Source: Clostridia bacterium (GTDB lineage: Bacteria; Bacillota; Clostridia; UBA1381). Taken from it: a DNA stretch of 64,000 bases. Location of the stretch: NCBI GenBank assembly GCA_017443895.1, contig JAFSXU010000060.1, forward strand, positions 1 through 64,000, written 5' to 3'. Below, piece after piece: positions 12,371-37,060 of this stretch. The translations under genes were made by a program, and so were the position numbers. The notes beneath the pieces were generated by a model. It was not told the origin of the DNA. It did not search any database and saw nothing but the letters and a program-made list of their open reading frames with translations. Within the stretch, counting starts at the first letter, position 1. The number at the start of each line of letters is the position of its first letter.

Positions 12371-12390
12371 ATAGGGGGTGTCGTTTTGAA

Positions 12391-13263
12391 ATGAAAATGA
12401 GTAATAGCGAGAAAACAGCAAATATTGTGATTTACCTTATTATGTTTGTTATGGTATTGGTTGTACTGTATCCTATGTGGTACATATTGATAGCCTCATT
12501 CTCCGGAGCGGCTGAGGTATCTGCAGGAAATGTAATCCTGAAGGTACACGACTTTAACATGGGAGCATATAAACGGGTATTTGCAATGAACGGTATCGCA
12601 AAGGCATATTTCAATACAATATTCTATACAGTATTTGGAACGCTTTTGAGTATATCGCTTACGATACTTGGTGGCTATGCACTCTCGAAAAGCCGATTGT
12701 ACGGCAGGCGAGGTCTGTTGCTGTTTATAACCTTTACCATGTGGTTTAACGCAGGCATGATGCCTACATATCTTACATACCAAACGCTTAATCTTGTAAA
12801 CACACGCATGGGAATACTCTTGTGCGGTGCGGTTTCAACCTTTTATGTGATTATAATGCGAACCTGCTTTGAGGCAATTCCGGATTCTATGGAGGAGTCA
12901 GCAAAGCTGGACGGTGCGAATGATTTTCAGATTCTGTGCTCTGTCTATCTTCCGCTTGCAAAGCCTACAATTATGACTTTGGTGTTGTATTATATGGTAA
13001 GCAGATGGAATGGATATTTCTGGTCAATGATATTGTTAAAGGATGACAACCTTATACCGCTGCAGGTTGTGCTTAAAAAGCTTATAGTAACGATGAGCGG
13101 TTTATACGATAACGGAAGTACAAATGCAGATACTACTCAGACGTCGGCTGAAACAGTTGTCTATGCAACGATTGTAATAGCGGCGGCGCCCATGCTTTTG
13201 GTATACCCGTTTATACAGCGTTTCTTTGCTAAAGGCATAATGGTAGGCGCAGTAAAGGGTTGA
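12391..13263 (+). CDS. CUT1 ABC sugar transporter permease, YtcP type
   Basis: A 290-residue second permease with six membrane helices (IVIYLIMFVMVLVVLYPMWY first) and the EAA-type loop EESAKLDGANDFQILCSVY. The ATG at 12391 is chosen because GGGGGTG lies 12 bases upstream; an in-frame ATG at 12364 overlaps the previous stop but has no ribosome site and only adds nine polar residues. It forms the transport channel with the LplB-type partner. Confidence 0.9.
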   Translation: MKMSNSEKTANIVIYLIMFVMVLVVLYPMWYILIASFSGAAEVSAGNVILKVHDFNMGAYKRVFAMNGIAKAYFNTIFYTVFGTLLSISLTILGGYALSKSRLYGRRGLLLFITFTMWFNAGMMPTYLTYQTLNLVNTRMGILLCGAVSTFYVIIMRTCFEAIPDSMEESAKLDGANDFQILCSVYLPLAKPTIMTLVLYYMVSRWNGYFWSMILLKDDNLIPLQVVLKKLIVTMSGLYDNGSTNADTTQTSAETVVYATIVIAAAPMLLVYPFIQRFFAKGIMVGAVKG

Positions 13264-13310
13264 GCGGTAATATAAAAACAGATTATAAGAACATAAAGGA
13301 GCGAAAAATC

Positions 13311-14852
13311 ATGAAAAAAAGAGAAAAAATAATTTCAGGTATACTGTTGGCTGTAATGTCTGCAACTATGCTTTCCTCATGTGGCAGCTTGCACAAGAGT
13401 GGCGATGTTAAGGAATTAAGCCTTTATGCTGTGTCGCAGGATGTGGCATATGACCAGAATTTGCCGATATGGAAAAAAGCAGAGGAGCTTACGGGAATAC
13501 GCCTTATAAATACAGTATCAAGCTCGGTTACAGATGAAAATTCCGCTTTCGGCACAATGCTGCTCAGTAAAAAGCTTCCTGATATTATCAGAAGCAAAAA
13601 CAGAAAATTAAGAGATATGGCAAAGGATGACGGTCTTATTGCGTTGGATGAATATTTTGATATTGCACCCAATCTCAAAGCGTTTTTTGAAGCTTGTCCC
13701 GATGCGGTGGATGTTGCAACAGTAAATGACGGGCATATTTATTTTGTGCCGGGAACAACAACGGATCTTGATAAGCAGGATACCCCGTCAACAGGCTTCT
13801 TTATCAGAAAGGACTGGCTTGAAAAGCTGAATCTTGATATTCCTACTACCATAGAGGAGCTTCACAATGTGCTTTACGCCTTTAAGACGCAGGACCCCAA
13901 CGGAAACGGGACTGCTGACGAGATACCTTTCTTCCAGCGTGAAAAGTCTATAAATGTATTGCTTAACCTGTATTGTACATCAAAAGGCTTCATGAAGAGC
14001 GAGGACGGCAAGGATGTTGTATTTGGTGGCACAACCGACAACTACAGGAAGGCGATCAAGGAGTATTCAAAGTGGTATAAGGAAGGACTTATCGACAATG
14101 AGATATATACCCGTAACCAGGCAAGAGAACAGCTTCTCGGTCAAAATGTGGGCGGTTGTACGGCAGACTGGTTCTCATCAACGGGTAAGTTTAACGATTC
14201 CTATGCAGATATGGTAGAGGGACTTGATTTCTCACCCATACTCCCGCCACAAAATATAAACGGTGAAATCACATGGCCGGACACCCGTGGAGCCTTGCAC
14301 GGTATGGGCTGGGGCATATCAAAGGATTGCAACAAGGACGATATAGAGGACGCAGTGAAATATCTCGACTTCTGGATGAGTGAAGAGGGCTGCAAGCTTA
14401 TGGCATACGGTGTCGAGGGCATAAGCTACACTATTGGCAGTGATGGCAGCATCATATGGAGCGATGAGGCGCTTGCTTATGCGGACGGACTTCCGGGCTA
14501 CCGCCGTTCCATAGGCTTTATGGAAACCGGAACAGTGGGAATTATGGAGGCCGAAAAGGCAGGAATGAATGAGACTGCTCTGGAAGGCTATGATATGTAT
14601 GAGAGCATAGTAAAAAATACAAAGCTGCCTGATCTTAATTACACTGATGAGGAACAGGAAATATATAACAAGTACTATAACGACATCAATACATATGTAG
14701 GAGAACAGCAACAGAAATGGATTATGGGTAAGGGCGATATTGACTCCGAATGGGATTCATATATTTCGACCCTCAACTCAATGGGACTTGATGAACTGAA
14801 AAAGATAACACATGATGCTTATGTAAGGCGTCTTAAAAATATAGGCAAATAA
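13311..14852 (+). CDS. extracellular solute-binding lipoprotein (LplA type)
   Basis: A 513-residue sugar-binding lipoprotein of the CUT1 class. The signal peptide ends in the lipobox LSSC with Cys24 as lipidation site, so the protein sits on the outer face of the membrane. Later blocks typical of the family include TGFFIRKDWLEKLNL, DPNGNGTADEIPFF and WGISKDC. Start chosen at 13311 after AAGGAG; the frame opens 51 bases earlier without a site. It delivers an oligosaccharide to the two permeases upstream. The SLH protein gene begins 13 bases after its stop, the same pairing seen in reverse order at locus 2. Confidence 0.92.
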   Translation: MKKREKIISGILLAVMSATMLSSCGSLHKSGDVKELSLYAVSQDVAYDQNLPIWKKAEELTGIRLINTVSSSVTDENSAFGTMLLSKKLPDIIRSKNRKLRDMAKDDGLIALDEYFDIAPNLKAFFEACPDAVDVATVNDGHIYFVPGTTTDLDKQDTPSTGFFIRKDWLEKLNLDIPTTIEELHNVLYAFKTQDPNGNGTADEIPFFQREKSINVLLNLYCTSKGFMKSEDGKDVVFGGTTDNYRKAIKEYSKWYKEGLIDNEIYTRNQAREQLLGQNVGGCTADWFSSTGKFNDSYADMVEGLDFSPILPPQNINGEITWPDTRGALHGMGWGISKDCNKDDIEDAVKYLDFWMSEEGCKLMAYGVEGISYTIGSDGSIIWSDEALAYADGLPGYRRSIGFMETGTVGIMEAEKAGMNETALEGYDMYESIVKNTKLPDLNYTDEEQEIYNKYYNDINTYVGEQQQKWIMGKGDIDSEWDSYISTLNSMGLDELKKITHDAYVRRLKNIGK

Positions 14853-20882: not shown

Positions 20883-23774
20883 ATGAAACGATTTGAAAAA
20901 ATTTTAGCTATATTGCTTGCATTAGTGATTCTTTCGGGAATATGTCAAATCGCATATGCCGAGGAGAGCGGTGCCACTGAAACAGCACAGACCTTTACAG
21001 AGGAAGTTGTTGATGATACGGAAAATACCGTTGAAGAGGAGCGTAAAAGCGAGGAGTATGATGAAACTGTTGATATGACTTTGTATGAATCCTCCGTTAT
21101 TGCAAGCGAAAGTCAGGACGGAAATCCGGCTGTGCAGGCAATGGACGGCTCTCTTGCAACAAAATGGGCAGCGGAGGGACCGGGCCAATGGCTTAGGATA
21201 AGGCTTGAGCAGGAAACGGAGCTTAAAAGCGTGGGACTTTCGTTTACCTCCGGCGATACGCGTCTTTATCAATTTGAACTCCAGACCTCTGTAGACGGTG
21301 AAAATTGGACTACCGTATACAGTGGCACAAACAGCAAAACTACTGCCGGTATAGAAATATATGAGTTAACTCCTACCCGTGCTAATTATTTTCGTTTTTT
21401 AGGAAATGGCTCTGATGTAAATATGTGGAACAATATCAATGAAATAACAGGGTTAAAACCGAAAATGATTGAGTACAGGCTCACGGTAGACGGTATAAAA
21501 ACGGGCTATAAGCATGAAACAACGGCGGGCGAGGGGACATATTTCATTCCTCTGATTGAAACTGCCTTAGATATGGAAAAGGAGCTTACCTGCGATTGGG
21601 ACAAAGACTTACAAAAAGCACTCATAAAGACCGAAACCCAAACCATGACTATTGATTTTCATAACAAAACCGCAGTTATGGACGGAAGAAATATACCTGA
21701 CGGCAGTCTGGTGAAAATAGCCGAGGACGGCGAACCGCTTATCCCATATACCCTTTTTGGGGAGCTTGACGCGGTAACAGTTAAATACAGCAGTGAAGAA
21801 AAGACGGTTTATATCACTACAGATTACTATGACAAAATACTTACTGCTTATGAAACGATCGACAATGAATTTTTGAATGTCATGGATTGGCTTGTAGGAC
21901 TGTATGACCCCGAAACAGGAGGCTTTTATAATACAACGAGCGGAGCAAAGCATGAAGGATATTATCCCTCAATAGAGGCAACAGGCTTCTTCTACGCGAT
22001 GTGCAGTAAATCTGAGTCAGGAGCTGTTGCTGCTATGCCGGATGAGTTTAAGCACAAGCTTATAAGTTTTTTCCAAAGTCGGCAGGATCCCGAAACAGGG
22101 TGGTTTACAGAAGAATATCCTAAAGCACCAAGCTATAGCGATCGTGATAAGATGCGTGTACATGAGCAGGCAGTAGATAAACTCAAGCAACTGGGCAGTA
22201 AGCCACTGTATCCGTTGCCGGGAGAGCAAAATTCAGTAGTTGAGGCAGGAGAAAAAACAGTTAGGCGGGGTAAGGCAAATATAATATTAACAAACCCTGA
22301 GCCCTCTTCCACACCACTAAAGGAATCGGCGGTATTAAGAAATGAAGCAAAAAATGAAAACTCTAAATCAGACAAATCATATTCATCGGGCTTTACCAAG
22401 AATACAGTTGTAAATCTGCCGAGCGGCGTGCCTGAATACTGCATGACGGTTAATGCCTTTATTGAGAATATGGCAAGCAGAAATTGGGATACGGATACAT
22501 GGAGTGCAGGCGATAAAGCATACGAGGACTTGAGCTATGTGGAAATGCTTCCGGCTGATGTGCGCCAATATTATATTGATGCGGCACTTGAATGGCTTAA
22601 TGAGCGTCAGGATCCGGAAACCGGCTACTGGGCGGCTGACGGTTCTATAAATTTTAACGATGTTTCGGGAGCATTTAAGGTCTGTAGGATTTATAACAGG
22701 TACGGACTGTGCCCTCCAAATGCTATGACTATAGCAGATACTGTACTCAAAACGCTGAGGCAGGGTTACAATGCAAACGCTGCTTGCTATGTAAGAAATC
22801 CAATATCAATATTTGAGATACTTATAAAATATGACCCTGAAGTGAAGAGAATGATACGCGAGAATGAGTGTGAAATTGTCGAGCTTTATTCCAAATATAT
22901 CCATGATATGTTCACAAAGGACGGAGCGGCTGCAACCAAGCTTATGAATGCCGTGGGTAAATTCGGAGGACTTTTAACGGGTACAACAGGCGCAGAGGGC
23001 GATATGGACGGAATGCAGCAGATGTGGCTTGCAAGGAGTTACCTTGCACAGGTATTCGGCAGAGCACTTTCCAATGACTTGCTTGCGGAGCATTACGACG
23101 AGTTCTGGAATAAGCTCATGACAAAGGAGCCGATTGTAAAAGAACCGTACGATGCAAAGCAGGGTGTAGTTTTTGAGGAGAATTTTGACAAAATAAATGA
23201 CATAAGTGAGCTTAGCTCTAAGTCATGGGGATTTATGAGCTTTAATAACTATCTTAAATCACGCAGTGTGGGCAACAATTATCTTTTAATAGATGACCGT
23301 ATAATAGCGGATGTTGAAGGCTGTTGCGGATACTTTCCCCGTGTGAAGAACGGTACGGTAGAGTGTGATATTATGTTCAACAGAAAGGATAAATATGTAT
23401 CAAAGGGTGATGATTGCAGTTATACATATTTCAGATTGTATTCAGATGAGGCCAATTCTGTTGAGCTCCATGCCGTAGACAACGGCACAGACAGGCTGGA
23501 GCTTGCCGTGGCATATATGGTAAACGGAACAAAGGTATATAAAAAGTTCACAACCGTCACTCGCGGTGAATGGGTGAAGCTTAAAATAGATTTTAGCTTT
23601 AACGGTGATGGAACGGCAAAGGTGCGATACTATGTCAACGGAAAATTGTATAATATGGTTAATGATATGCTGACACGCACAGGCTACAGTTATATAACGG
23701 GAGTCGGTCTGTATTCAAGCGCTCTGAGAGTTTCACAGCTTGCCATAGATAATATTAAAGTTACAGCACACTGA
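20883..23774 (+). CDS. secreted multidomain alpha/alpha-toroid protein with F5/8-type domain
   Basis: A 963-residue exported protein: signal peptide about 1-26; acidic stretch; F5/8 type C (CBM32-like) domain about 65-185 (AVQAMDGSLATKWAAEGPG, NYFRFLG); copper-amine-oxidase-N-like stalk domain about 195-315; helical toroid domain about 320-760 with repeated YDPETGGFY, RQDPETGWF and RQDPETGYW; and a C-terminal LamG-like sandwich about 765-963. The repeats recall prenyltransferase/terpene-cyclase-like toroids, a fold also used by many polysaccharide lyases. Paralogous to the next gene over the toroid and C-terminal parts. Enzyme activity is possible but not shown by any motif I can name. Confidence 0.65.
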   Translation: MKRFEKILAILLALVILSGICQIAYAEESGATETAQTFTEEVVDDTENTVEEERKSEEYDETVDMTLYESSVIASESQDGNPAVQAMDGSLATKWAAEGPGQWLRIRLEQETELKSVGLSFTSGDTRLYQFELQTSVDGENWTTVYSGTNSKTTAGIEIYELTPTRANYFRFLGNGSDVNMWNNINEITGLKPKMIEYRLTVDGIKTGYKHETTAGEGTYFIPLIETALDMEKELTCDWDKDLQKALIKTETQTMTIDFHNKTAVMDGRNIPDGSLVKIAEDGEPLIPYTLFGELDAVTVKYSSEEKTVYITTDYYDKILTAYETIDNEFLNVMDWLVGLYDPETGGFYNTTSGAKHEGYYPSIEATGFFYAMCSKSESGAVAAMPDEFKHKLISFFQSRQDPETGWFTEEYPKAPSYSDRDKMRVHEQAVDKLKQLGSKPLYPLPGEQNSVVEAGEKTVRRGKANIILTNPEPSSTPLKESAVLRNEAKNENSKSDKSYSSGFTKNTVVNLPSGVPEYCMTVNAFIENMASRNWDTDTWSAGDKAYEDLSYVEMLPADVRQYYIDAALEWLNERQDPETGYWAADGSINFNDVSGAFKVCRIYNRYGLCPPNAMTIADTVLKTLRQGYNANAACYVRNPISIFEILIKYDPEVKRMIRENECEIVELYSKYIHDMFTKDGAAATKLMNAVGKFGGLLTGTTGAEGDMDGMQQMWLARSYLAQVFGRALSNDLLAEHYDEFWNKLMTKEPIVKEPYDAKQGVVFEENFDKINDISELSSKSWGFMSFNNYLKSRSVGNNYLLIDDRIIADVEGCCGYFPRVKNGTVECDIMFNRKDKYVSKGDDCSYTYFRLYSDEANSVELHAVDNGTDRLELAVAYMVNGTKVYKKFTTVTRGEWVKLKIDFSFNGDGTAKVRYYVNGKLYNMVNDMLTRTGYSYITGVGLYSSALRVSQLAIDNIKVTAH

Positions 23775-23846
23775 TGATTTTGAGTACCGTTGTGAAAGCA
23801 GACTAAAAACAGAGATACGGTATACAACTGATGTGTGAAAACATAA

Positions 23847-23873
23847 TATGGGATAGTCATATACTATCCCATA
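23847..23873 (+). other. perfect intercistronic hairpin
   Basis: TATGGGATAGT (23847-23857) pairs with 23863-23873 around CATAT and ends 23 bases before the next start codon. No T tract follows, so it is more likely an mRNA stability or processing element than a terminator. Confidence 0.5.
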
Positions 23874-23896
23874 ATGGAAAGGACTGGGAGCGTGAT

Positions 23897-26671
23897 ATGA
23901 AAAAAAACATAATATCGGTTATATCGCTTCTGTGTATGTGGACTGTAGCAATAAACACATATGCAGCAGAGGTATGCCTGTGGTATTACAAAGACGGAGT
24001 GCCTGTAAATTCCGACAGCAAAGGGAATATATCTGCAAGAGTTGCAATAAATGATGCGGAAGAGGGCAAGCAATACTCGCTGTTCTTAGCGTCATATAAT
24101 GGCGACGGCAAACTTCACGATGTGCTCTTAACAAAAAGCAGTGGCAACGGTATGTTTGAAATATCGGCACCGGACAACTCTGACGGCGGAACGGTAAAAG
24201 CATTTGCGTGGGACAGTATGCGGCCGCTTGAGGAGCGAAAGTTTTATATAGAAGACTTTGAAAATGACAAAGATGAAAAGCCTCCGTCATACAACAAGTG
24301 GAGCATAACAGCTCCGGAGGGGACTGAGGCTGTTGTGGCAGAAGATCCGAAAAACAGTGCAAACAAGGTATTAAAGCTTAGCGATAACACTACATCGGGC
24401 AGATTGTCGGCAATATATCATCTGAGTGAACAGGCAAATGATGTGTACTCTGTAAGCTGGCGGATATATTACGCTCGTGACGGTGCATATAAGAGCGGTG
24501 AGAATGATACGGGTTATAGCTGGTTTCATGCACGAACGGCAAAAAATGAAACTATAATGTCTATGGCTATGCTGGACAACAGCAGTGGCAACGGCAATGT
24601 TATGACCAAGGCGCAGGACGGTGAGGTAAAAAATTTCAAAAATATCACTGTTAATGAATGGCATGATATGGCTATGGTATACTACGGCAGTGAAAAGGTG
24701 AGTTTTTACCTGGACGGGCACTATATCGGCTCAAAAACTCCGCTTACGGCGGGGAATATGAGCAGAATATGCTTTTTCTCAACCGATAAGCGCATAAACA
24801 CAACCTACATAGACGATATAACAGTCCATTATGAAATCCCTCAATACTCGGAGCGGTACGAGGAATATGACATAATTGACAGTTGCTTTGTAAATACTCT
24901 GGATTGGCTTGTAGATGTGTATGACCCCGAAAGTGGGGGTTTCTATACAACAAAGAGTGCGGCGCTCACAAAAGGGTATGTACCATCGCTTGAATCAACC
25001 GCACTTGCGATTGCAATGCTTAAAAAGGGTGAATCGGGAATATGCAATAATGTAAAAACCGACATACCCGTGGATATACGAAATAAGCTTATCAATTTCT
25101 TCCAATCAAGGCAGAATCCTGATGACGGATATTTTTATGATACGGGAAAGACCGGTGCAGACTACAATTCAAGAGATAGAATGAGAGTCTATGAACAATG
25201 TGTCTCAAAACTGGCGGATTTGGGGGCAAAACCGCTCTATCCTCTGCCGGGCTCGTCCTCATCGGCAACAGTATCAGTAAAAAGTAGCGTAAAGCTTATG
25301 ACAGCATCGGTGAGCTATCCGTCAGGTTTCCCCGAGGAGTATAAAACCGTTGACGGCTTTATGTCATATGTAACATCACAGAATTGGGACAGCAACTCAT
25401 GGACCGCAGGAGACAGAACCTATGAGGCATACAGTTATATATTGATGCTCCCCGATGAAGCGCAGACAGAGTACCGTCAAGCACTGCTTGAGTGGCTTGA
25501 AAGCCGTCAGGATCCGATAACAGGTTACTGGGGCGAGAGTGGTGATTATGGGTTTAATGCCCTTTCCGGTGCATTCAAGGTAGCGAGAATATATGAGCGG
25601 TTTAATATTGGTATCCCTAAACCGGAGCTGATACTTCAGTCGGTAATAAAAACTGTATCGGACGGTGGGTTCCCATCAGAGGCGTTCTATGTGCGTAATC
25701 CGGTTGATCTTGCCCGGATAGTTAAGAACTATTATCCGGAGGTGTTTAAAGAAACCTTTAACGGCACGGAAAATATGTTTGTTGAAAATTATAGCAGATA
25801 TATAAGAGAGTTTATCAAAGCCGACGGTGGCGCATCATCATATATTTATATGGCAAGCCAAAGCTTTGGCGGAATATCGTCAGGTAGACAGCTGTGCGAG
25901 AGCGATATGGACGCAACTCAGCAAATGTGGCTTGCACGTCAATACCTTTGCAGTCTGTTTGGAATGGAGCTGGACTATTCACAGCTTGCCGATAGCTATG
26001 AGGGTTTTTGGGATAGGCTCAGAAATAAGGAAAAAATTGAAAAAACACAGTATTTGCTTAACGGTGGCACTGTAAGTCATAGCTTTGAGGGTATATCAAG
26101 GAATGATATATTTGATTGTGGCTTTGCAGCGAGCGTTGCTGATATAGAGCTCAAGTCAGAGGGTAGCAATACATTCCTAAGAGTAGGGGACAGCTCTCTA
26201 ACTGAGTCTTCAAAGTTGCGTTTGGTTATTCCCGAAATAACAAAAACGGGTACAATACGCATGAAGCTCAGATATAACCGTGCCAACACTTATTCTTCGC
26301 AGGTCAATGATGCAAGCTATAACTATATAAGACTAAGGTCGGGCAATGAGAATTTTATAGAGCTTGTTGTTGTGGATACGGGAAGCACGATGACACTGCG
26401 CACGCTTAAACAGCCAAGCACCGTGAGCACATCAAGCTATGAAAATCTCGGAAGCATGAAAAACGGCGTGTGGTTTACGCTTGAAATAAACTTTGACAAA
26501 ACGGATACCGAAACAGCGGTGAGCTATAAATTCAACGGCAGTCAATGTATTAACGCTACAAATGTTACTACAGGCAGATATAACGGTTCGGTTGGAGCTA
26601 TCAATTTTGAATCATCTAAACCTCGTCTCTCATCGCTAAGCGTTGATGACATTTACATAACGGGAAATTAA
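23897..26671 (+). CDS. secreted alpha/alpha-toroid protein, paralog of the preceding gene
   Basis: A 924-residue exported protein started at the ATG at 23897, where GGGAG and a signal peptide (MKKNIISVISLLCMW ... TYAAEV) follow; the frame opens 22 codons earlier inside the intercistronic hairpin. A beta domain about 25-100 and LamG-like module about 110-315 precede the toroid domain (about 330-735; YDPESGGFY, RQNPDDGYFYD, RQDPITGYW) and a C-terminal LamG-like domain. Compared with its upstream paralog the F5/8 and stalk domains are replaced by a LamG-like domain while the toroid core is kept, pointing to different binding targets for the same core. Confidence 0.65.
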   Translation: MKKNIISVISLLCMWTVAINTYAAEVCLWYYKDGVPVNSDSKGNISARVAINDAEEGKQYSLFLASYNGDGKLHDVLLTKSSGNGMFEISAPDNSDGGTVKAFAWDSMRPLEERKFYIEDFENDKDEKPPSYNKWSITAPEGTEAVVAEDPKNSANKVLKLSDNTTSGRLSAIYHLSEQANDVYSVSWRIYYARDGAYKSGENDTGYSWFHARTAKNETIMSMAMLDNSSGNGNVMTKAQDGEVKNFKNITVNEWHDMAMVYYGSEKVSFYLDGHYIGSKTPLTAGNMSRICFFSTDKRINTTYIDDITVHYEIPQYSERYEEYDIIDSCFVNTLDWLVDVYDPESGGFYTTKSAALTKGYVPSLESTALAIAMLKKGESGICNNVKTDIPVDIRNKLINFFQSRQNPDDGYFYDTGKTGADYNSRDRMRVYEQCVSKLADLGAKPLYPLPGSSSSATVSVKSSVKLMTASVSYPSGFPEEYKTVDGFMSYVTSQNWDSNSWTAGDRTYEAYSYILMLPDEAQTEYRQALLEWLESRQDPITGYWGESGDYGFNALSGAFKVARIYERFNIGIPKPELILQSVIKTVSDGGFPSEAFYVRNPVDLARIVKNYYPEVFKETFNGTENMFVENYSRYIREFIKADGGASSYIYMASQSFGGISSGRQLCESDMDATQQMWLARQYLCSLFGMELDYSQLADSYEGFWDRLRNKEKIEKTQYLLNGGTVSHSFEGISRNDIFDCGFAASVADIELKSEGSNTFLRVGDSSLTESSKLRLVIPEITKTGTIRMKLRYNRANTYSSQVNDASYNYIRLRSGNENFIELVVVDTGSTMTLRTLKQPSTVSTSSYENLGSMKNGVWFTLEINFDKTDTETAVSYKFNGSQCINATNVTTGRYNGSVGAINFESSKPRLSSLSVDDIYITGN

Positions 26672-26689
26672 AAATCAAGGAGGCAGAAT

Positions 26690-29674
26690 ATGAAGAGTAA
26701 ACGAATAATATCAATGATTGCGGCGGTGGCCATGATTTGTCCCGCAGCGGTACAGGCGGCAACGGTTACACAGCCTGATATGCAAATTTATGTAAATACG
26801 TTGCCGGCGGATTCGCTGGATAATATTACATCCGGCGATGTAACAGTGAGGAAACTACTTGCAAACAACAGCGACCGGACAAAAACAATAGCATTTGCGC
26901 TTGCCCGATACAGTGATACAGGAGAGCTTATGGGGGTTAGCTGGGACAGTGTAGAGCTCACAGCAGGCGATAGCAACTATGCTTCGGCAAGGCTTTTGTC
27001 AGAATCGGGCGGAAAACTCAAAACCTTTGAATGGGAAATGCCGAGCCAGGTTCCATCAGAGCTAAAATCGCCGTGTAATGTTCTCTCTTCGCTAAAAGTA
27101 AGAGGTTGTGCGGCGGCTGTTGACAGTGCGTCTAACAAGGTATTGGTGAAAAGTACAGGTATTTCTGCCGATGATATATCCGATATTAAGGTGTCGGAGG
27201 GTGCGCAGGCAGTCGTATCCCAAGACGGCAAAATCATAACCGTCACGGCCGAAAATGGCAGTGATCGTGTTTATACGGTAGAAACTGCTGATTTCACCAT
27301 GATAGACTTTGATAGTGATACGGTAGGCAGTGCGCCGACTGAAGGGTCAGTTGCACCCGTAAAATCTGACGATACACGCTCTGTTTCAGTCGTACCAGAT
27401 CCCGATGATGAGGGAAATAATGTACTAAGGGTTTTGGATAATAGTACGGAGAACTCTTGTTCATATGTTTATGACTTGAAGACGCCGGTTGAATATCCAT
27501 ATGTTGTAAGCACAAAGGTAAGATATGAGCGTAATAATGAATACAGCCAGGGTGAGGACGATATAAGCTATAGCTGGTTCAGGCTCAGGAACAGAGAAAG
27601 AGCTGATGAGACAAGTAACTGGGTAGATACAAATATATATCATTTTGCCGCAATGGAGACCGGTGCCGGCAGGTATCCCCTTACAATGCCGTCTGCAGCG
27701 GGTTCGTCAAGTGAATCTGCAGTAAGTAACACTGAATGCGGAATAGGACAGTGGCATCAGGTGGATATGGTATGTAATTCCTATGATGATATAAAGGTTT
27801 ATTTTGACGGCAGACTTGTAAGAAGCGTAGGATCTGAAACAGCAAGCGATGTTGCTCTTACAAGAATAGGTCTGTTTACAACTGCTACAAGAAAGAATAC
27901 AACATACCTTGATGATATTGTGGTTTATCCGATAGAAAGAGGGTCACTTACCGAGGCGGTATTCAATGTTCCGTCATTGATGGCTGACGGTAAAATATAT
28001 ATACAGGCATCGGATATTTCAAAGGTAACTATAGATAAAGCAAAATCAAAATACATCGGAGCAGATATTGAGCTTGATACAAATATTCCGGCGGTAGTGG
28101 TAACAAAGGACTCTGATTCTGTAAGCTATCCGTTGGTTTTAAAGCCTGCTGATGAGTTCTATACCGATGATTATGAGACTTGGAGTGAAACTACTCTGTC
28201 ATCAACCGCAGTAACAGCACCCGGCGGAACGGTTAAATATACAATGAGCTCTCCGTCTAAAGCAAATGCCGTTGACGGTGTTTACAGTAAAATAACAGAG
28301 GTAGACGGCAATAAGCTGCTCAAGATGAACGCAGGAGCGGGCGATGGAAGTAATCACCGTGTCGGAATAACTATCTCAAATGTTCCGTCAGCTTCATCAT
28401 ATGCAATAACTTATGATGTTATGTATTCCATTCCAGAGAATACTACATTCAATGACGGCGATGTATCGGGTCAGAGCGTAACACCGTCCCGATTTGTAAT
28501 CTACGGACGAAATGCAGCTAATACAAATCTTGTAACCTTCCAGCCCGGCGGAATTATAAGCGGAACTCAAATTTTCAAGGCTAATACCGGCTCTGATATA
28601 ACAGGTACGAGAATAGCGTTGGATACATGGTATGAGGTTAAGATTATAGTAAAAGAAGGAACGGCAACCTACTATCTGGATGGTGAGGTTATTGATGAAA
28701 AGACTGTTAGTACAGATGATTTAAGCAAGCTTGCAATCTGGTCATCGGATAACAGAAAAGCACTTGTGCATCTTGATAATCTGACAGTAGTGTCCTTGAC
28801 CGAGCCAAAGCCCGTCTGCGAGCTTATTTCTGCGGAATTTAATAAGGATTCGGAGATTATAGGAAATACGATATATGTTGACGCAGAAGAGCTTTCCGAG
28901 GTTGAGCTTGTTAATGCGGAGGTATCTTTCGGTGCAGAATATACATATGAGGACGGTGTCCTTACTGTTACGGCAAAGGGCGCCGAACAGAGTATTTATT
29001 CTGTAAAGACGGTTAGCTTCTTTAAGGACGATTTTGAGAGCTATGATGCTGAAACTGTCATCGGTTCGGGCAGCAAGGCTTTGGGCAGATATTCCAATTC
29101 TACGAGCGGAGCAGACGAGACTGATGTATATGCAAAGATAGCCAAGGAGTCGGACAATCAGTTTATGGAGCTTTATGACGGACTAAACAGTGCCGCACAG
29201 CGGGTTTCGCTTACAATAGGAAGTATTCCGCAGGCATCGTCATTTATTCTTGAGTATGATGTAAAATACGATATTCCCAAAAATCAGGAATATGATGTCG
29301 ATAGTTGGAACTGCACATATTTTGCTACAAATGTGAGAAATTCCGCTAATACAAACCTTGCCGCATTCCAGACCTATACGACAGTAAAAAGCTCTGAGCC
29401 GTACAGGCTTGCACCGCATGCGTATTACGGCGGACAGTTCACCAAGGTGGATAACAGCAAGTATTATATGAAGCTCGGAGAGTGGAGTCATATCAAAATC
29501 GTATATAATAACGGAACAGACAGTGCTGCGGTTACATACTATCTTGACGGCGAAGTTGTAGCCGAAAATCAGACGGCGGAGCAGGGTGAGCTTGCTAAGC
29601 TCCAGATTTTCTCGTCAACAACGAGAAAGGCAGTTGCTTCGTTTGATAATTTCAGATTAGTTCCGATTATATAA
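26690..29674 (+). CDS. secreted triple LamG-like module protein
   Basis: A 994-residue exported protein with signal peptide about 1-23 (AAVQAAT). An N-terminal beta domain about 25-145 and a bridging domain about 150-205 are followed by LamG-like modules at about 205-415, 490-705 and 780-994, each ending in a YLDDIVV or LDNLTV-type strand. Two short linker beta domains lie between them. Tandem modules suggest multivalent glycan binding. Parts are nearly identical in DNA to the next gene, including runs of about 40 identical bases. AGGAGG lies just before the ATG. No wall anchor or catalytic motif seen. Confidence 0.68.
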   Translation: MKSKRIISMIAAVAMICPAAVQAATVTQPDMQIYVNTLPADSLDNITSGDVTVRKLLANNSDRTKTIAFALARYSDTGELMGVSWDSVELTAGDSNYASARLLSESGGKLKTFEWEMPSQVPSELKSPCNVLSSLKVRGCAAAVDSASNKVLVKSTGISADDISDIKVSEGAQAVVSQDGKIITVTAENGSDRVYTVETADFTMIDFDSDTVGSAPTEGSVAPVKSDDTRSVSVVPDPDDEGNNVLRVLDNSTENSCSYVYDLKTPVEYPYVVSTKVRYERNNEYSQGEDDISYSWFRLRNRERADETSNWVDTNIYHFAAMETGAGRYPLTMPSAAGSSSESAVSNTECGIGQWHQVDMVCNSYDDIKVYFDGRLVRSVGSETASDVALTRIGLFTTATRKNTTYLDDIVVYPIERGSLTEAVFNVPSLMADGKIYIQASDISKVTIDKAKSKYIGADIELDTNIPAVVVTKDSDSVSYPLVLKPADEFYTDDYETWSETTLSSTAVTAPGGTVKYTMSSPSKANAVDGVYSKITEVDGNKLLKMNAGAGDGSNHRVGITISNVPSASSYAITYDVMYSIPENTTFNDGDVSGQSVTPSRFVIYGRNAANTNLVTFQPGGIISGTQIFKANTGSDITGTRIALDTWYEVKIIVKEGTATYYLDGEVIDEKTVSTDDLSKLAIWSSDNRKALVHLDNLTVVSLTEPKPVCELISAEFNKDSEIIGNTIYVDAEELSEVELVNAEVSFGAEYTYEDGVLTVTAKGAEQSIYSVKTVSFFKDDFESYDAETVIGSGSKALGRYSNSTSGADETDVYAKIAKESDNQFMELYDGLNSAAQRVSLTIGSIPQASSFILEYDVKYDIPKNQEYDVDSWNCTYFATNVRNSANTNLAAFQTYTTVKSSEPYRLAPHAYYGGQFTKVDNSKYYMKLGEWSHIKIVYNNGTDSAAVTYYLDGEVVAENQTAEQGELAKLQIFSSTTRKAVASFDNFRLVPII

Positions 29675-29696
29675 AAATATAAAGGAGGATTCTTTC

Positions 29697-31865
29697 ATGA
29701 AAAAAACAAGTAAGGCACTTATCTGCATGGGAATTGTCGCATCAATGCTCACTCCTGCGTTAGGTGCATCGGCGGCTACGGTTTCTCAGCCGCAGCTTGC
29801 AATCTATCAGGGCACACTTCCCGTGTCCGGCCTTGGCAGTCTTAGTGCCGGCACAGAAGCGACCTTAAAAAAGCAGTTGGTAAATAATACGGACTCGCCA
29901 AAGAGAATGGCACTCATTGCCGCAGAGTATGACAATGGACGCATTATACAGACGCGGACAAGCGATATAACAGTTCCTGCAAATTCAACGGTATTTGCAA
30001 CGGTAAAAATCACACCGACAAATCCGGCTAATATTAAGGTGTTCACATGGGAGCTTCCGAGTGCGACACCTAATGATGCATTACCGTATAACACGCTTTC
30101 ATCGGTAAAAATAGGTAACTACTCAACCTATGTTGAGGGCGCATCAAAGACCGTTTATGTAAATACTACAGACGATATTTCTTCTGCTCAGGTTAGTGAT
30201 GTAAAGGTTTCACCGAATGCAACCTACACTGTAGCTCAGGGTAACAGTGCCATAACAGTAACTGCACAGGACGGAACCACAGAGGTCTATGCCGTAAAAA
30301 CAGGAGGCTTTACAAAGCTTGACTTTGATAGTGATACGGTAGGCAGTGTTCCAACGACTACAACAGGAGAAACCACAATTTCGCCTGACAGCAGCAGTAC
30401 TCGTAAAGTCATAGTTGCTACGGATCCGGATGATGCGAATAATAAGGTACTCAAGGTTTGGGATAATTATTCCGCTGCCTCAGCCGCAGCCTGCGAGTAT
30501 AGATATGATCTTGCAGAGCCTGTATCATATCCATATGTTGTAAGTACAAAGGTAAGATACGATCGTGAAAATACATATAGTGCGAATGCGGATAATATAA
30601 ACTATAACTGGTTCAGACTAAGAAACAGAGAAAACAATGTAGATACAAATATATATCATTTCGGCGCGGAGGAGACCGGCGATGGCGAGTATCTCCTTAA
30701 AATGCCGTATGAAGCGGGTACTTCAACAGAGTCTACAGTAGATGCCGCTCAAGGCGGAATAGGACAGTGGCATCAGGTGGATATGGTATGTAAGTCCGCT
30801 GCTGATATAAAGGTTTATTTTGACGGCAGACTTGTAAGAAGCGCAGGAGCGGAAACAGTAAGTGATGTTGCTCTTACGAGAATATATTTTATCACCGGAC
30901 ATGCAAGAAAGAATACAACATACCTTGATGATATTGTAATCCGGCCGATGGAAAAGGCATCGCTTACCGAGGCGGTATTTAATGTCCCGTCTCTGATGGT
31001 TGACGGTACTGTGTATGTACAGGCAGATAACCTTTCGGGTGTTACTCTTGATGCGTCAAAATCAACCTATACAGGAACTGATATTGATGTTGTAAATTCA
31101 GCAGTTGTGGTAACAAGCGAGAGCGGTACGGCAACCTATCCTATAGTGCTAAAGACGGCAGCCAACTTCTTTGCTGACGATTATGAAGGGGTTGTTTGGA
31201 CAGGAGAAAAGCAAAATGCTGTCTATGTAGGTAGTGGTGATATTAATAGCAACAAGGTTTATTATGACCGTCAGAACCGCAGTGCAGGTGATGATGTATA
31301 TATGATGACTGTTAGTGAGAACGGAAATAAGGTTCTCAAAATGAATGCGGGAGTAGGTACAGCAACCGGTAATCGGTTTGGATTGAATATAACGAATATT
31401 CCTTCATCAAGCTCTTATGTGATCGATTATGATGTTAAGTATTCAATTCCGGCAGGCACTACATTTAATAATGTAGATAAATCAGGTGAAGGCGTAACAC
31501 CGGTGGCATTTTCGATCAATGGGAGAAACACGAATAGTAAAGATTTGGTAGGCTTCAGACCGGCGAATTACAATAGCACAACAGAAACATTCAATGCGAG
31601 CAGACAAACATCAAGCAATACCGGTAACAATGTTACTTCAAGTTGGGCTAACATATCCGGAACATCAATAGCGATGAATACATGGTATAAAGTTAAGATT
31701 GTTGTAAAAGCAGGAAAGGCGACCTATTATTTGGATGATGTAGCTATCGCGTCGGATGTGAGCGTTAGTTCAGATGCTTTGAACAGAATTTCGATCTGGT
31801 CATCGACAAACAGAAAAGCAACTGTATATCTTGACAACCTGAAGGTACTTGATCTTACTGAATAA
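29697..31865 (+). CDS. secreted double LamG-like module protein, recent paralog of preceding gene
   Basis: A 722-residue exported protein with signal peptide about 1-26 (GASAAT), the same N-terminal and bridging domains as its upstream neighbour, and two LamG-like modules (about 205-415 and 490-720); the third module of the neighbour is missing. High DNA similarity in patches (for example 30756-30850 against 27739-27833) points to recent duplication or gene conversion. AAAGGAGG precedes the ATG. Its stop codon lies one base before the start of the next gene, suggesting coupled translation with a cytosolic toroid protein. Confidence 0.68.
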   Translation: MKKTSKALICMGIVASMLTPALGASAATVSQPQLAIYQGTLPVSGLGSLSAGTEATLKKQLVNNTDSPKRMALIAAEYDNGRIIQTRTSDITVPANSTVFATVKITPTNPANIKVFTWELPSATPNDALPYNTLSSVKIGNYSTYVEGASKTVYVNTTDDISSAQVSDVKVSPNATYTVAQGNSAITVTAQDGTTEVYAVKTGGFTKLDFDSDTVGSVPTTTTGETTISPDSSSTRKVIVATDPDDANNKVLKVWDNYSAASAAACEYRYDLAEPVSYPYVVSTKVRYDRENTYSANADNINYNWFRLRNRENNVDTNIYHFGAEETGDGEYLLKMPYEAGTSTESTVDAAQGGIGQWHQVDMVCKSAADIKVYFDGRLVRSAGAETVSDVALTRIYFITGHARKNTTYLDDIVIRPMEKASLTEAVFNVPSLMVDGTVYVQADNLSGVTLDASKSTYTGTDIDVVNSAVVVTSESGTATYPIVLKTAANFFADDYEGVVWTGEKQNAVYVGSGDINSNKVYYDRQNRSAGDDVYMMTVSENGNKVLKMNAGVGTATGNRFGLNITNIPSSSSYVIDYDVKYSIPAGTTFNNVDKSGEGVTPVAFSINGRNTNSKDLVGFRPANYNSTTETFNASRQTSSNTGNNVTSSWANISGTSIAMNTWYKVKIVVKAGKATYYLDDVAIASDVSVSSDALNRISIWSSTNRKATVYLDNLKVLDLTE

Positions 31866-31866
31866 T

Positions 31867-32862
31867 ATGCACAGAATTGATGAACTTATAAAACAAATAA
31901 AGGCGGCGGTGGACTCGCATTGCTTAGGGCGTACCGGCGAGTATGCACGGTGGATAATAAAAGAGCCAAACAGGAATATGGGGCTTAACGAATACGGCTG
32001 CGCAGATGCGGCAAATATCCTGTATACTCTGTGCGAGTTCCCCGCAATAGCGGAGGAAAGAGCCAAGTGGGTTGGCGTTCTTCAGAGCTTTCAGAATGAG
32101 GATACGGGAATGTTCAGCGAGCGTACTCATTTCCCTCTACACACCACAGCGCATTGTACGGCGGCACTGGAGCTTTTTGAGGCAAAGCCGAAATATCGCT
32201 TTAAACAGCTTGAAGCGGAGATTAAAAAAAGAGGAATTGAGAACTTTCTTGACGGTCTTGACTGGATAAACGACCCTTGGAGTAATTCACATCTCGGCGC
32301 AGGAATATACGCATCACTTAAACTTGTCGGGGATATGACGCCGGAGCTTGAGGAAAGGTATTTTACATGGCTTTGGAATGAATCCGACCCTGAAACGGGA
32401 CTGTGGCGAAAGGACAGTGTGCAGAGCGGAAATGCGCCTATATATTATCATATGGCGTCAACATTCCACTATCTGTTTAACCATGAATACGCAAGGCGTC
32501 CGATACCATACCCCGAGCGGCTTGTTGATACTTGTCTTGATATGTATTATAACAGTCTTTTAAGGGAGGATTTTGGAAAAACGGTAAGCTTCCTGGAGAT
32601 GGATTGGGTATACTGTCTTAACCGTGCGATGCGTTTGAGCGGTTATCGCATAGCGGAGGGTAGAGCTGCGCTTAAAGGGTTTGCCGATGAATTTATTGAA
32701 TACCTTTATTCAATAGATAAAGAGCGCGATACTGCGTGGGACGATTTGCATAATCTGTTTGGTACATTATGCGCATTGGCGGAGCTTGAGCAGGCGTTAT
32801 ACGGATATATAATTACAGACAAGCCGCTTCGGCTTGTGCTTGACCGCCGGCCTTTTATTTAA
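31867..32862 (+). CDS. cytosolic alpha/alpha-toroid protein of unknown activity
   Basis: A 331-residue protein with no signal peptide. It repeats the QNEDTGMFSE and SDPETGLWRK type motif of the two large toroid proteins, with conserved-looking HTTAHCTAALELF, SNSHLGAGIYASL and ASTFHYLFNHE blocks, so it looks like a stand-alone toroid domain. The ATG at 31867 has no good ribosome site but sits one base after the previous stop, so translational coupling is likely. A cytosolic member beside secreted relatives suggests that each works on the same glycan at a different chain length or location. Lyase, hydrolase or epimerase activity are all possible. Confidence 0.6.
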   Translation: MHRIDELIKQIKAAVDSHCLGRTGEYARWIIKEPNRNMGLNEYGCADAANILYTLCEFPAIAEERAKWVGVLQSFQNEDTGMFSERTHFPLHTTAHCTAALELFEAKPKYRFKQLEAEIKKRGIENFLDGLDWINDPWSNSHLGAGIYASLKLVGDMTPELEERYFTWLWNESDPETGLWRKDSVQSGNAPIYYHMASTFHYLFNHEYARRPIPYPERLVDTCLDMYYNSLLREDFGKTVSFLEMDWVYCLNRAMRLSGYRIAEGRAALKGFADEFIEYLYSIDKERDTAWDDLHNLFGTLCALAELEQALYGYIITDKPLRLVLDRRPFI

Positions 32863-33775: not shown

Positions 33776-34882
33776 ATGAATTTTGCAGAGGAATGTTGGA
33801 GTAAGTTAGATACAAAGCTGTCACGCACAGCAGTTTCATCATATGACAAGCTTCCTTATACAACACAAAACGGTGTGCATAATGATATGATGAAAAAAAA
33901 CAAAAGCTGGTGGACAAACGGATTTTGGCCTGCGTTAATGGTTCTTATGTATGCCGGAACAAAAAAGGAGCAGTATCTTAAAACTGCAAGACACGGTATG
34001 GAGCTTTTGGACAGTGCGCTTTATACCTATAACGGTCTGCATCACGATGTGGGATTTATGTGGAATATATCCGCAGGAGCGGATTATCGCATAACAGGAG
34101 ACCAGGAGGAAAGAAACAGGTTTATGATTGCGGCAAATCATATGATGGGCCGTTTTAACTGTGACGGAGAATTTTTCAGAGCTTGGAACGGAGACAATAC
34201 AGAGGGCTGGGCAATCATAGATTGTATGATGAATATTCCGTTGCTTTACAGGGCTACGGAGGAAACGGGAGACCCACGCTTTGCCATGGCGGCGATAAAG
34301 CACGCGGACAAGACAATGAAATATCATGTGCGGCCCGACGGCTCGTGTAATCATATAAATGAATATAACCATATCACAGGTGAATTTATAAAGGCTCATA
34401 CAGGTCAGGGCGTTGCGCCGAATTCGTCATGGTCAAGAGGGCAGGCATGGGGACTTTACGGCTTTGCGCTTTCCTACAGATACACAAAAAAACCGGAATA
34501 TCTTGCAACCGCAAAAAGAATTGCGCATTATTTTATAGCGAATGTACAGAGTACGGGTTGGCTCTCATTATGTGATTTCCGACAGCCGTCAGAGCCTGTT
34601 ATTTATGATTCAACCGCTGCGGCGTGTGCGGCGTGCGGTCTTTTGGAGATTGAACGGCTTGTTCCCGAATGTGAAAGAAAAATATATTATGATGCCGCAG
34701 TCAATATACTTAAAACACTTAATGAACGATGTTGTGATTGGAGTCATGACGAGGATTCAATACTTCAGTTAGGCACAGGAGCATATAACAGTGAGATACA
34801 TATACCCATTATTTACGGCGATTATTTCTTCGCCGAGGGAATTTACCGTCTTATGGGATTTGACGCCGGTATGCTCTGGTAG
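33776..34882 (+). CDS. GH88 unsaturated glucuronyl hydrolase
   Basis: A 368-residue cytosolic (alpha/alpha)6-barrel enzyme that removes the unsaturated uronic acid left at the non-reducing end of oligosaccharides by polysaccharide lyases. Markers: HHDVGFMW with Asp91 and IIDCMMN with Asp149, matching the two active-site Asp of characterised unsaturated glucuronyl hydrolases (Asp88 and Asp149 in the Bacillus enzyme), then SWSRGQAWGLYGF and YGDYFFAEG. Length fits the family; GH105 is less likely. AAAGGAG precedes the ATG. Its presence implies a lyase upstream in the pathway, yet no known lyase family is recognisable in the operon. Confidence 0.88.
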   Translation: MNFAEECWSKLDTKLSRTAVSSYDKLPYTTQNGVHNDMMKKNKSWWTNGFWPALMVLMYAGTKKEQYLKTARHGMELLDSALYTYNGLHHDVGFMWNISAGADYRITGDQEERNRFMIAANHMMGRFNCDGEFFRAWNGDNTEGWAIIDCMMNIPLLYRATEETGDPRFAMAAIKHADKTMKYHVRPDGSCNHINEYNHITGEFIKAHTGQGVAPNSSWSRGQAWGLYGFALSYRYTKKPEYLATAKRIAHYFIANVQSTGWLSLCDFRQPSEPVIYDSTAAACAACGLLEIERLVPECERKIYYDAAVNILKTLNERCCDWSHDEDSILQLGTGAYNSEIHIPIIYGDYFFAEGIYRLMGFDAGMLW

Positions 34883-34897: not shown

Positions 34898-37060
34898 ATG
34901 GTTGATATAAAGAAGATACTTAAAAGAATGACTGTTCGGGAGAAAATAGGACAACTGTCGCAATACAATGCAAATTTATTTCTTGATACGGACGCTATGG
35001 TAACAGGGAATATGGATATGCTTGTAATCAGTGGCGAAGACTTAAAATATGTCGGTCATGTGCTGAATTTCAAAAGTCCTGCTGAGATGAGGCAAATTCA
35101 AAAGGAGCATCTTCAAAATGACAGAAACAAAATACCTATGCTGTTTATGATGGATGTTATCCACGGCTTCCGCACTATATACCCGATACCGTTGGCTTTG
35201 GGCTGTTCGTTTAATCCTGATCTGGTTACGGAGTGCAGCCGTATGGCGGCAAGGGAGGCAGTAAAGGGTGGTGTGCAGGTAACATTCACACCAATGGTCG
35301 ATTATGTGCGTGATGCACGCTGGGGCAGGGTAATGGAGAGCACCGGCGAGGATGCATATTTGAACAGCGTCATGGGAGAGGCGCAGGTAAGAGCCTTTCA
35401 GGGCGATGATCTTTCGGACAAAGAAAGCATTGCTGTGTGCGTCAAACACTTTGCCGCGTACGGTGGCGCAGAGGCAGGGCGTGACTATAATACTGTTGAG
35501 CTTTCGGAGCATACTCTGCGCGAGCATTATCTTCCGGCATATAAAGTGTGTCTTGATGCGGGTGCAGAGATAATAATGCCGTCCTTTAACACTTTGAACG
35601 GTGTTCCGGCAACAGCAAATTCATGGCTGATGAAAACGGTGTTAAAGGACGAGTGGGGCTTTGACGGTATCGTAATAAGCGATTTCGGCGCAATAAAGGA
35701 GCTTATTGATCACGGAGTTGCACAGGACGGTAAAGCGGCAGCAAGACTTGCTTTTGATAATAACTGTAATATAGAAATGTGTTCCGCAATGTATTTTAGT
35801 TATTTAGAGGAGCTTATTGGCGAAAATGTATTCAGTATGGCACAGCTTGATGAGGCGGTATTGAAGGTGCTTGATCTTAAAAAACGGCTTGGAATGTTTG
35901 ACAATCCATACCGTGGTGCAGATGTAACGGATATTGAAATAACTCACGAAAACAGAGAGGTTTCACGGCGCGCTGCAGAGGAATGTGCTGTACTGTTAAA
36001 GAATAACGGAGTGTTGCCCTTTAAAAAATCAACAAAAAAATTAGCAGTTATAGGACCGTTTGCGGATAATCATAATATAATCGGCTTCTGGTCATGTAAC
36101 GGTAAAAACGAGGAAAGTGTTACTGTTGCAGATGGTATAAAAGCACTGCTGCCTGATGCTGAAATAACAGTTATTGAAGGTTGCGGTGATGAATGGAATG
36201 ATACCGATACAAGCGGTTTTGATGAAGCTGTAAATGCGGCAAAAGCATCGGAGGTGGTTATACTATGCCTTGGTGAACCGCAGGATTACAGCGGTGAGGG
36301 AAATTCAAGGCTTGAACTGGAGCTTCATAAAATACAGCTCGAGCTTGCAAAAGCTGTTATAGGAGTGAATAGAAACACAGCGGTTCTGACCTTCAGTGGC
36401 AGACCAATGGTGCTTACGGAGCTTGAAAAAACAGCTCCGGCAATACTTCATATGTGGTTTCCGGGCACTGAGGGCGGAATGGCTGTGGCAAATTTGTTGT
36501 TCGGTTTTGCAAATCCCTGCGGTAAGCTGTCGATGACATTTCCGAGATCTACAGGACAATGCCCAATCTATTATAATCACACAAATATTATTAAATACGG
36601 CAAGCCGGGCGCTCATAAGCCGTATTGTGCAAGCTATATAGAGCATGATAATCTGCCACTCTATTCATTCGGACATGGCTTGTCATATTCGGATTTTGCT
36701 TATGAAGAGCTTGCACTGTCGAAGGACGCTATGACGGCTGATGAAAGTATAGAGGTGAGCATAACAGTCCATAACACATCTGACATAGCAGGAAAAGAGA
36801 CGGTAATGCTTTATATGTGTGATATGGTAGCTTCAACTGCAAGACCTGTACAGCAGCTTATAGCTTTCAAGAAGATATATTTTGAGCCGAGTGAAAGAAA
36901 AGTTATAAAATTCACAGTAACAGAACCCATGTTAAGGTTCTGGAATAATAACAACGAATATGTTTCTGAACCGGGTGAGTTCCGGCTTTGGACCGGTTAT
37001 GCGGATCATCTGGTATTGGAGAAAAAATTCAGTTTAATGATTGGCAGTTCTGATGTATAA
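34898..37060 (+). CDS. GH3 beta-glycosidase
   Basis: A 720-residue cytosolic enzyme (no signal peptide) of the BglX-like GH3 class. The (beta/alpha)8 domain carries KHFAAYGG and the nucleophile motif VISDFGA (Asp near 259); the alpha/beta sandwich domain follows (GEPQDYSGEGNSR), and a fibronectin-III-like domain fills about 610-715 (YSFGHGLSYSDFAY just before). Such enzymes remove beta-linked glucose, xylose or related sugars from oligosaccharide ends. It starts 15 bases after GH88, closing the locus 1 operon; together with GH43 it would finish degradation of imported oligosaccharides. Confidence 0.9.
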   Translation: MVDIKKILKRMTVREKIGQLSQYNANLFLDTDAMVTGNMDMLVISGEDLKYVGHVLNFKSPAEMRQIQKEHLQNDRNKIPMLFMMDVIHGFRTIYPIPLALGCSFNPDLVTECSRMAAREAVKGGVQVTFTPMVDYVRDARWGRVMESTGEDAYLNSVMGEAQVRAFQGDDLSDKESIAVCVKHFAAYGGAEAGRDYNTVELSEHTLREHYLPAYKVCLDAGAEIIMPSFNTLNGVPATANSWLMKTVLKDEWGFDGIVISDFGAIKELIDHGVAQDGKAAARLAFDNNCNIEMCSAMYFSYLEELIGENVFSMAQLDEAVLKVLDLKKRLGMFDNPYRGADVTDIEITHENREVSRRAAEECAVLLKNNGVLPFKKSTKKLAVIGPFADNHNIIGFWSCNGKNEESVTVADGIKALLPDAEITVIEGCGDEWNDTDTSGFDEAVNAAKASEVVILCLGEPQDYSGEGNSRLELELHKIQLELAKAVIGVNRNTAVLTFSGRPMVLTELEKTAPAILHMWFPGTEGGMAVANLLFGFANPCGKLSMTFPRSTGQCPIYYNHTNIIKYGKPGAHKPYCASYIEHDNLPLYSFGHGLSYSDFAYEELALSKDAMTADESIEVSITVHNTSDIAGKETVMLYMCDMVASTARPVQQLIAFKKIYFEPSERKVIKFTVTEPMLRFWNNNNEYVSEPGEFRLWTGYADHLVLEKKFSLMIGSSDV

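Follow-up and report, generated by a model that had tools for sequence, protein, structure and literature searches.

Three toroid proteins in a glycan operon

The window analysed here is a 64,000-nucleotide stretch of contig JAFSXU010000060.1 from a Clostridia bacterium (GCA_017443895.1). It carries a same-strand run of genes that extends from a glycoside hydrolase (GH) gene of family GH43, starting at position 10540, through two permeases, a solute-binding protein and proteins with SLH and LamG domains, to a GH88 gene and a GH3 gene ending at position 37060. Within this operon lie three genes for alpha/alpha-toroid proteins, which we call Tor1, Tor2 and Tor3 (Table 1). All three open reading frames (ORFs) are real and, as a first-pass annotation of the window had proposed, encode two secreted paralogs and one cytosolic protein of 331 amino acids. 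Tor1 and Tor2 belong to an uncatalogued family of toroid proteins, real and without a name in the databases searched, whose genes recur beside those of unsaturated uronyl hydrolases in other genomes. The family likely consists of enzymes of uronic-acid glycan breakdown.

Tor1 and Tor2 are 37% identical over 667 amino acids. The probable start of Tor2 is an inner ATG at position 23897 (giving 924 amino acids), ahead of a stretch that looks by eye like a signal peptide; no signal peptide is visible in Tor3. Both Tor1 and Tor2 match the profile of the core Tor family and carry its invariant Tyr, Lys, Asn and Asp. Tor3 is only remotely similar to them by BLAST (E = 3e-4), and its match to the core profile spans 98 profile positions with a score of only 1e-5. 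When profiles were compared with each other, Tor3 did fall in with the Tor family (hhalign probability 99.6, E = 1.4e-23), and an alignment of this kind shows other residues in place of the core's invariant Lys and Asn. For this reason Tor3 should not be grouped with Tor1 and Tor2, as the first-pass annotation had done; its sequence places it as a cousin in a divergent subfamily rather than as a core member. The motif said to unite the three proteins, (Q/D)(D/N)P(E/D)TG(Y/W/F), has two strict occurrences in Tor1 and none in Tor2 or Tor3. In relaxed form it was found three, three and two times in Tor1, Tor2 and Tor3, respectively, against 0.0015-0.01 expected, and none of 2000 shuffles reached the observed counts.

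The toroid fold that had been proposed was borne out by structure prediction. The Tor2 toroid, modelled from an alignment of 36 sequences, was predicted with high confidence as an alpha/alpha toroid (predicted local distance difference test score (pLDDT) 91.1, predicted template modelling score (pTM) 0.90), and the Tor3 model was weaker (pLDDT 68.9). A Foldseek search of the PDB with the Tor2 toroid returned no matches at E ≤0.001. The best match was squalene-hopene cyclase (E = 1.5e-3, root-mean-square deviation (rmsd) 9.8), the weak matches included GH76, GH105, GH88 and 2-epimerase toroids, and the sole entry labelled as a lyase that was noticed among the top 50 was 5noa (E = 0.059). The weak Tor3 model retrieved PL17/alginate lyase and hyaluronate lyase entries at E values of 0.7-1.8. 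Comparison with the polysaccharide lyase (PL) families PL8, PL15 and PL21 and with GH88/GH105, as suggested in the first-pass annotation, yielded no strong match, and these results are not read as absence of a relation.

A second structural aligner placed protein prenyltransferase beta subunits first for Tor2 (Z 17.2, rmsd 4.2, 283 aligned residues, 11% identity), followed by terpene cyclases at Z 13-14, and gave the same class of neighbours for Tor3 (Z 15.2, rmsd 4.3, 274 aligned residues, 14% identity); for helical models a Z of up to about 14 may mean no more than that the arrangement is a common one, and function does not follow from a shared fold. There was also a weak profile match between Tor and squalene-hopene cyclase (E = 0.061) at a Q-N-P-x-x-G-x-W-type repeat. 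The predicted Tor2 model has a terpenoid cyclase/prenyltransferase-like overall fold. Tor shares the alpha/alpha toroid with the prenyltransferase beta subunits and with type II terpene cyclases, but the context of its genes is the breakdown of plant polysaccharides and not isoprenoids.

As the first-pass annotation had anticipated, the toroids match no known family in the databases searched. Neither Pfam nor NCBIfam has a family that covers the toroids of Tor1, Tor2, Tor3 or the scanned relatives, no confident PDB match was obtained, and no lyase model in Pfam or NCBIfam passed its cut-off in these proteins. GH88 and GH105 enzymes (UGL, YteR) are themselves alpha/alpha toroids and are similar in size to Tor. 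PF07470 did not match the toroids of Tor1, Tor2, Tor3 or those of loci L006-L008, and comparison of the Tor and GH88/105 profiles showed no relation (hhalign probability 3.6). Because the two occur together as genetic partners, Tor does another job than GH88/105. PL10 pectate lyases are alpha/alpha helical barrel pectin lyases; a single PL10 domain sequence showed no similarity to the Tor profile (hhalign probability 0.8), and PF09492 had no match in the toroids. A literature search, judged from titles and the openings of abstracts, gave no paper recognised as describing the Tor family.

Relatives, conserved residues and gene neighbourhoods

A search with Tor3 found a match in one of 70 genomes of its own family and one of 398 genomes of a phylum sample, in both cases Tor3 itself. 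The Tor1/Tor2 profile matched 4 of 95 genomes of the order, and a widened version matched 11 of 391 genomes of the class, several of them through weak Tor3-like cousins only. A first scan of contigs of named genomes with the two window domains as query found nothing; scanning with a 12-sequence alignment found 29 loci, hosted by gut Clostridia metagenome-assembled genomes (MAGs), Paenibacillus, Gracilibacillus, Salipaludibacillus, Anaerobacillus and Cerasicoccus. Seven of these loci (L049, L058, L059, L062, L064, L068 and L069) were excluded as duplicates, leaving 22 non-duplicate named loci. The candidate list, from which four broken or split Tor ORFs (L050) and a partial ORF (L059) were excluded, held 38 sequences. 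The alignment (A5) contains 34 of these (without L059, L064, L068 and one of the two L075 copies) and the two window domains, giving 36 rows. The core Tor of Bacilli is a cytosolic single-domain protein of about 365 amino acids, encoded for example at L076:9986-11080 in Gracilibacillus dipsosauri and at L060:9995-11128 in Paenibacillus campinasensis. Plasmid records searched with the Bacilli Tor gave no relatives; the same records yielded relatives of Tor3. At five loci a very large Tor protein (1335-2191 amino acids) is encoded beside a second, shorter Tor gene (409-506 amino acids) (L054:11206-16143, L056:10778-15529, L057:9356-13363, L063:3356-9931 and L070:3392-9889), which suggests pairs acting outside and inside the cell.

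Four residues (Tyr372, Lys583, Asn623 and Asp665, in Tor2 numbering) are identical in all 36 core sequences. Position 388 is Glu in 34 sequences and Gln in two, Arg452 is kept in 30 of the 36, as is Glu690, and both Tor1 and Tor2 retain every one of these residues. E388, R452, K583, N623 and E690/D692 fall within the first half of helices or immediately ahead of it, and Y372 lies in a loop. If the helices that bear them are taken as the inner ones, the model suggests that these residues converge on one mouth of the toroid. Asp365 and Asp665 lie in the repeated motifs of Q/Y-D-P-x-x-G type and may be structural. In two copies from Cerasicoccus both E388 and E690 are Gln with the Lys, Asn and Tyr kept, and these copies could be inactive.

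The genetic link between Tor and GH88/GH105, for which the window offers a single instance, recurs in other genomes and extends to gene fusion, and is patchier outside Bacilli. In Paenibacillus harenae (L077:9929-12154) a single ORF of 741 amino acids comprises a complete Tor (residues 1-377) followed by a GH88/105 domain (residues 390-738, PF07470 1.5e-113); among solved proteins, YteR is the closest to this domain (4.5e-135). Since fused enzymes usually serve one pathway, it is very probable that Tor and YteR act on the same oligosaccharide, Tor one step earlier or later.

In all seven Bacilli clusters (L060, L067, L071, L072, L074, L076 and L077) Tor is accompanied by a regulator of the AraC kind (about 770 amino acids), a solute-binding protein and two permeases. 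A gene similar to the major facilitator superfamily (MFS) lies directly 3' of Tor in six of the seven, an assignment confirmed by Pfam in all four clusters tested, and GH43 is likewise present in six. GH105 was found within about 10 kb of Tor at four of the seven loci (fused in one), and at a fifth it lies about 21 kb away within a single run of pectin genes that also includes a pectinesterase. Under uniform placement the probability of finding GH105 at four or more of seven loci is about 3.6e-6, a figure that ignores the clustering of sugar genes. In G853 and G855 the GH88/105 gene near Tor is the only one in the genome. GH28 is present at three of the seven loci, as are KduI and KduD together, which process the product of unsaturated-uronyl release. 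Cytoplasmic GH105 enzymes are reported to act on lyase products in Paenibacillus (PMC7267202), and oligogalacturonate lyases together with YteR have been described as producers of the KduI substrate (PMC12838403).

GH88/105 is present in the flanking DNA of five of the 22 non-duplicate named loci, namely four Bacilli loci and L053, where unrelated genes lie between. Outside Bacilli, a protein with the architecture of Tor1 is encoded two genes from an SLH-GH88 protein in L011, and in L039 Tor is next but one to a GH88 gene on the opposite strand, whose product is close to that of the window (8e-95).

Proposed function and alternatives

The first-pass annotation had argued that GH88 acts on unsaturated ends made by lyases, that the operon lacks a recognisable lyase, and that one or more toroids may therefore supply the lyase step. 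Its premises held: the GH88 of the operon is similar to a solved unsaturated glucuronyl hydrolase (Table 1), and a Pfam/NCBIfam scan found no lyase family above cut-off in the window operon, with a single sub-threshold match to PF14099 (16.4 bits against a cut-off of 29.9) in the C-terminal beta domain of Tor1. The conclusion held in part. The association of Tor1/Tor2-type proteins with GH88/GH105 supports it, but the lyase step is not forced on the toroids, as shown below.

We favour, with real uncertainty, a reading in which core Tor proteins are alpha/alpha-toroid enzymes that cut uronic-acid plant polysaccharide for the unsaturated-uronyl hydrolases, likeliest by beta-elimination. The GH105 fusion, the Bacilli neighbourhoods, the presence of KduI and KduD, and two genomes without PL1, PL22 or PL11 all point to a lyase or another enzyme of uronate glycans. 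In the window, the secreted Tor1 and Tor2, with their carbohydrate-binding domains, would cut the polymer outside the cell. The ATP-binding cassette (ABC) transporter would then import the oligosaccharides, the cytosolic GH88 would take off the unsaturated uronate, and GH43 and GH3 would trim neutral sugars. The toroid cavity would be the active site, with the Lys (or Tyr) as a candidate base and the Asn, Arg and Glu holding the carboxylate. Going by the alignment, the invariant Lys, Tyr and Asn and the Gln-tolerant Glu lean towards a lyase over a two-carboxylate hydrolase. A bolder and more tentative proposal is that core Tor founds an uncatalogued family of poly- and oligosaccharide lyases on a prenyltransferase/terpene-cyclase-like toroid, extracellular in the window and intracellular in Bacilli, which feeds GH88/GH105 and replaces PL1, PL11 and PL22 in some genomes.

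The two genomes concerned are those of Gracilibacillus timonensis (G853) and Anaerobacillus alkalilacustris (G854), which carry Tor, GH105, KduI and KduD and gave no match to PL1 (PF00544), PL22 (PF14583) or PL11 (PF18370), the three families covered by the test in Bacilli; control genomes were positive. PF14583 was found in G851, G852 and G855 and not in G850, G853, G854, G856 or the window's own genome (G000). The fold of PL22 is a beta-propeller, which differs from that of Tor; Tor would be a functional analogue that fills the slot of the cytosolic oligogalacturonate lyase in the Bacilli operons.

Several observations weigh against a lyase role. At least one of PL1, PL22 and PL11 is present in each of the five remaining Bacilli genomes. 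The window's genome had no match to PF00544 or PF14583, but its other contigs contain 10 PF07940 (heparinase-II/III-like) and 8 PF18370 (PL11-like) matches, and given these other candidates GH88 does not need Tor. (A search of this genome with PF02278 is no evidence of absence, since no control genome matched.) The significance of the Bacilli neighbourhoods is inflated by the clustering of sugar genes, and at 17 of the 22 named loci GH88/105 was not seen in the flanking DNA examined. In L053 (7524-11113) Tor lies directly downstream of a PL10 pectate lyase (PF09492 2e-109), which already provides a lyase step at this locus. At four non-redundant core loci (L035, L056, L063 and L070) there is GH4, identified by Pfam at one and by similarity at the others, and no GH88/105; GH4 beside Tor would suit saturated products. 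The best neighbours of the predicted fold are, furthermore, not specifically lyase-like.

In the main rival reading, core Tor would instead be a new glycoside hydrolase family acting on uronic-acid oligo- or polysaccharides (e.g., an alpha-galacturonidase, a rhamnosidase or an enzyme of xylogalacturonan type) before or after GH88/105, and the unsaturated ends would be made by other bacteria or by lyases encoded at other places in the genome. We consider this a lesser but substantial possibility. The GH4 neighbours, the PL10 gene of L053 and the many lyase candidates in the window's genome are in keeping with it, as are the weak Foldseek matches to GH76, GH105 and GH88 and the conserved acids E388, E690, D692, D365 and D665. 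It sits less well with the Gln substitutions at E388 and E690 in the two (possibly inactive) Cerasicoccus copies, which keep Lys, Asn and Tyr, and with genomes that have KduI/KduD and GH105 and lack PL1, PL11 and PL22, which need a source of unsaturated ends.

It is unlikely that the toroids alter a uronate glycan without cutting it, as a C5-epimerase, an isomerase-like enzyme or a transferase-associated domain. The 2-epimerase toroids among the weak fold matches and the fusions that join some toroids, in Clostridia and on plasmids of Streptomyces and Rhizobium, to hexapeptide acyltransferases would fit such a role; however, these fusions are of Tor3 type, whereas the fusion partner of core Tor is a degradative GH105 and its operons are catabolic. 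Least likely is that Tor1 and Tor2 are non-catalytic surface binders like the adjacent LamG proteins, as their CBM32, LamG and CuAO_N1 domains and their location among secreted LamG proteins might suggest, given cytosolic single-domain relatives in operons, invariant polar residues and the GH105 fusion.

The Tor family has neither a Pfam/NCBIfam model nor a confident solved relative, yet it is fused to a YteR-type enzyme and occurs in pectin operons of cultured Bacilli. Tor is thus a candidate, open to direct testing, for a step that is missing from the breakdown of uronate polysaccharides, and the Bacilli proteins of about 365 amino acids are good assay targets. If core Tor is a lyase, the capacity to form unsaturated uronides could extend to genomes that are at present interpreted as lacking it; if it is a hydrolase, it represents a new GH family.

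Tor3-type proteins and other features of the window

The position of Tor3 in the operon suggests that it works on imported oligosaccharide, and as a divergent cytosolic cousin it would do so with an altered pocket. A Tor3-type protein of 342 amino acids is encoded downstream of a tripartite ATP-independent periplasmic (TRAP) transporter in L044, and a full-length relative with 46% identity to Tor3 was found on a Microvirga ossetica plasmid (NZ_CP016619.1). On the M. ossetica plasmid (L099:11977-14059) two tandem Tor3-type genes, both annotated as hypothetical, lie inside an ABC sugar-transporter gene set in which no other glycan-cutting enzyme was recognised. Fusions of a hexapeptide-repeat acyltransferase to a Tor3-type toroid occur in Clostridia (L006 and L008) and on Streptomyces and Rhizobium plasmids (L100:7245-8924 and L101:7191-8840), and the Streptomyces fusion adjoins two GH28 genes.

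Table 1. Annotated features of the Tor operon and its regulator in the window (HMM, hidden Markov model).
Feature	Position	Strand	Evidence
AraC-type regulator, 734 amino acids, divergent from operon	8127..10331	-	PF12833 7.2e-21
GH43, first gene of operon	10540..11418	+	PF04616 2.6e-34
Two ABC permeases and solute-binding protein	11411..14852	+	PF00528, PF01547
SLH surface protein, 1418 amino acids	14866..19122	+	PF00395 1.3e-32
Secreted LamG-like protein, 582 amino acids	19124..20872	+	PF13385 weak, sub-threshold
Tor1, 963 amino acids: signal peptide (by eye), CBM32-like F5/8 type C, CuAO_N1, toroid (~305-766), LamG-like C-terminus	20883..23774	+	Pfam, PDB CBM32 matches, Tor HMM
Tor1 toroid domain	21795..23180	+	
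Tor2, 946 amino acids as listed: signal peptide, LamG-like, toroid (336-743), LamG-like	23831..26671	+	
Tor2 toroid domain, predicted structure	24836..26059	+	pLDDT 91.1, pTM 0.90
Two secreted LamG-like proteins, 994 and 722 amino acids	26690..31865	+	PF13385 1.4e-12 (first); second sub-threshold only
Tor3, cytosolic toroid protein, 331 amino acids, divergent subfamily	31867..32859	+	ATG at 31867 within ORF 31849-32862
GH88 unsaturated glucuronyl hydrolase, cytosolic	33776..34882	+	phmmer 7.4e-59 to solved 1vd5; PF07470 1e-11
GH3	34898..37060	+	PF00933 7.2e-59; BglX model 5.6e-205

The transporter of the Bacilli Tor operons is of the same type as that encoded by the ABC genes of the window, a likeness that is not specific. 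We considered the window permeases as specific orthologs of those in the Bacilli Tor operons and dropped this assignment, since another permease of G853 scores equally (9e-83). Elsewhere in the window's genome (C2:39869-43583), a further GH88/105 match has a PF07940 match at a distance of about 2 kb.

The window also contains an SLH gene (60302-62980), about 23 kb beyond the downstream end of the operon, and an SLH protein resembling its product is encoded near a Tor gene at seven loci from gut Clostridia MAGs (L035, L036, L037, L038, L041, L065 and L066). At five of these seven loci there is also a secreted protein of about 380 amino acids, one of which was scanned and had no Pfam match. The SLH gene belongs to a second gene run (44039-62980) which encodes a GH78-like rhamnosidase, a GH39-like protein, a CBM9 protein and SLH proteins, as well as an ORF (46222-48069) with no Pfam match. 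Near the start of the window (4308-5809) lies a toxin-antitoxin pair resembling AbiEi/AbiEii, with the AbiEi match just below cut-off.

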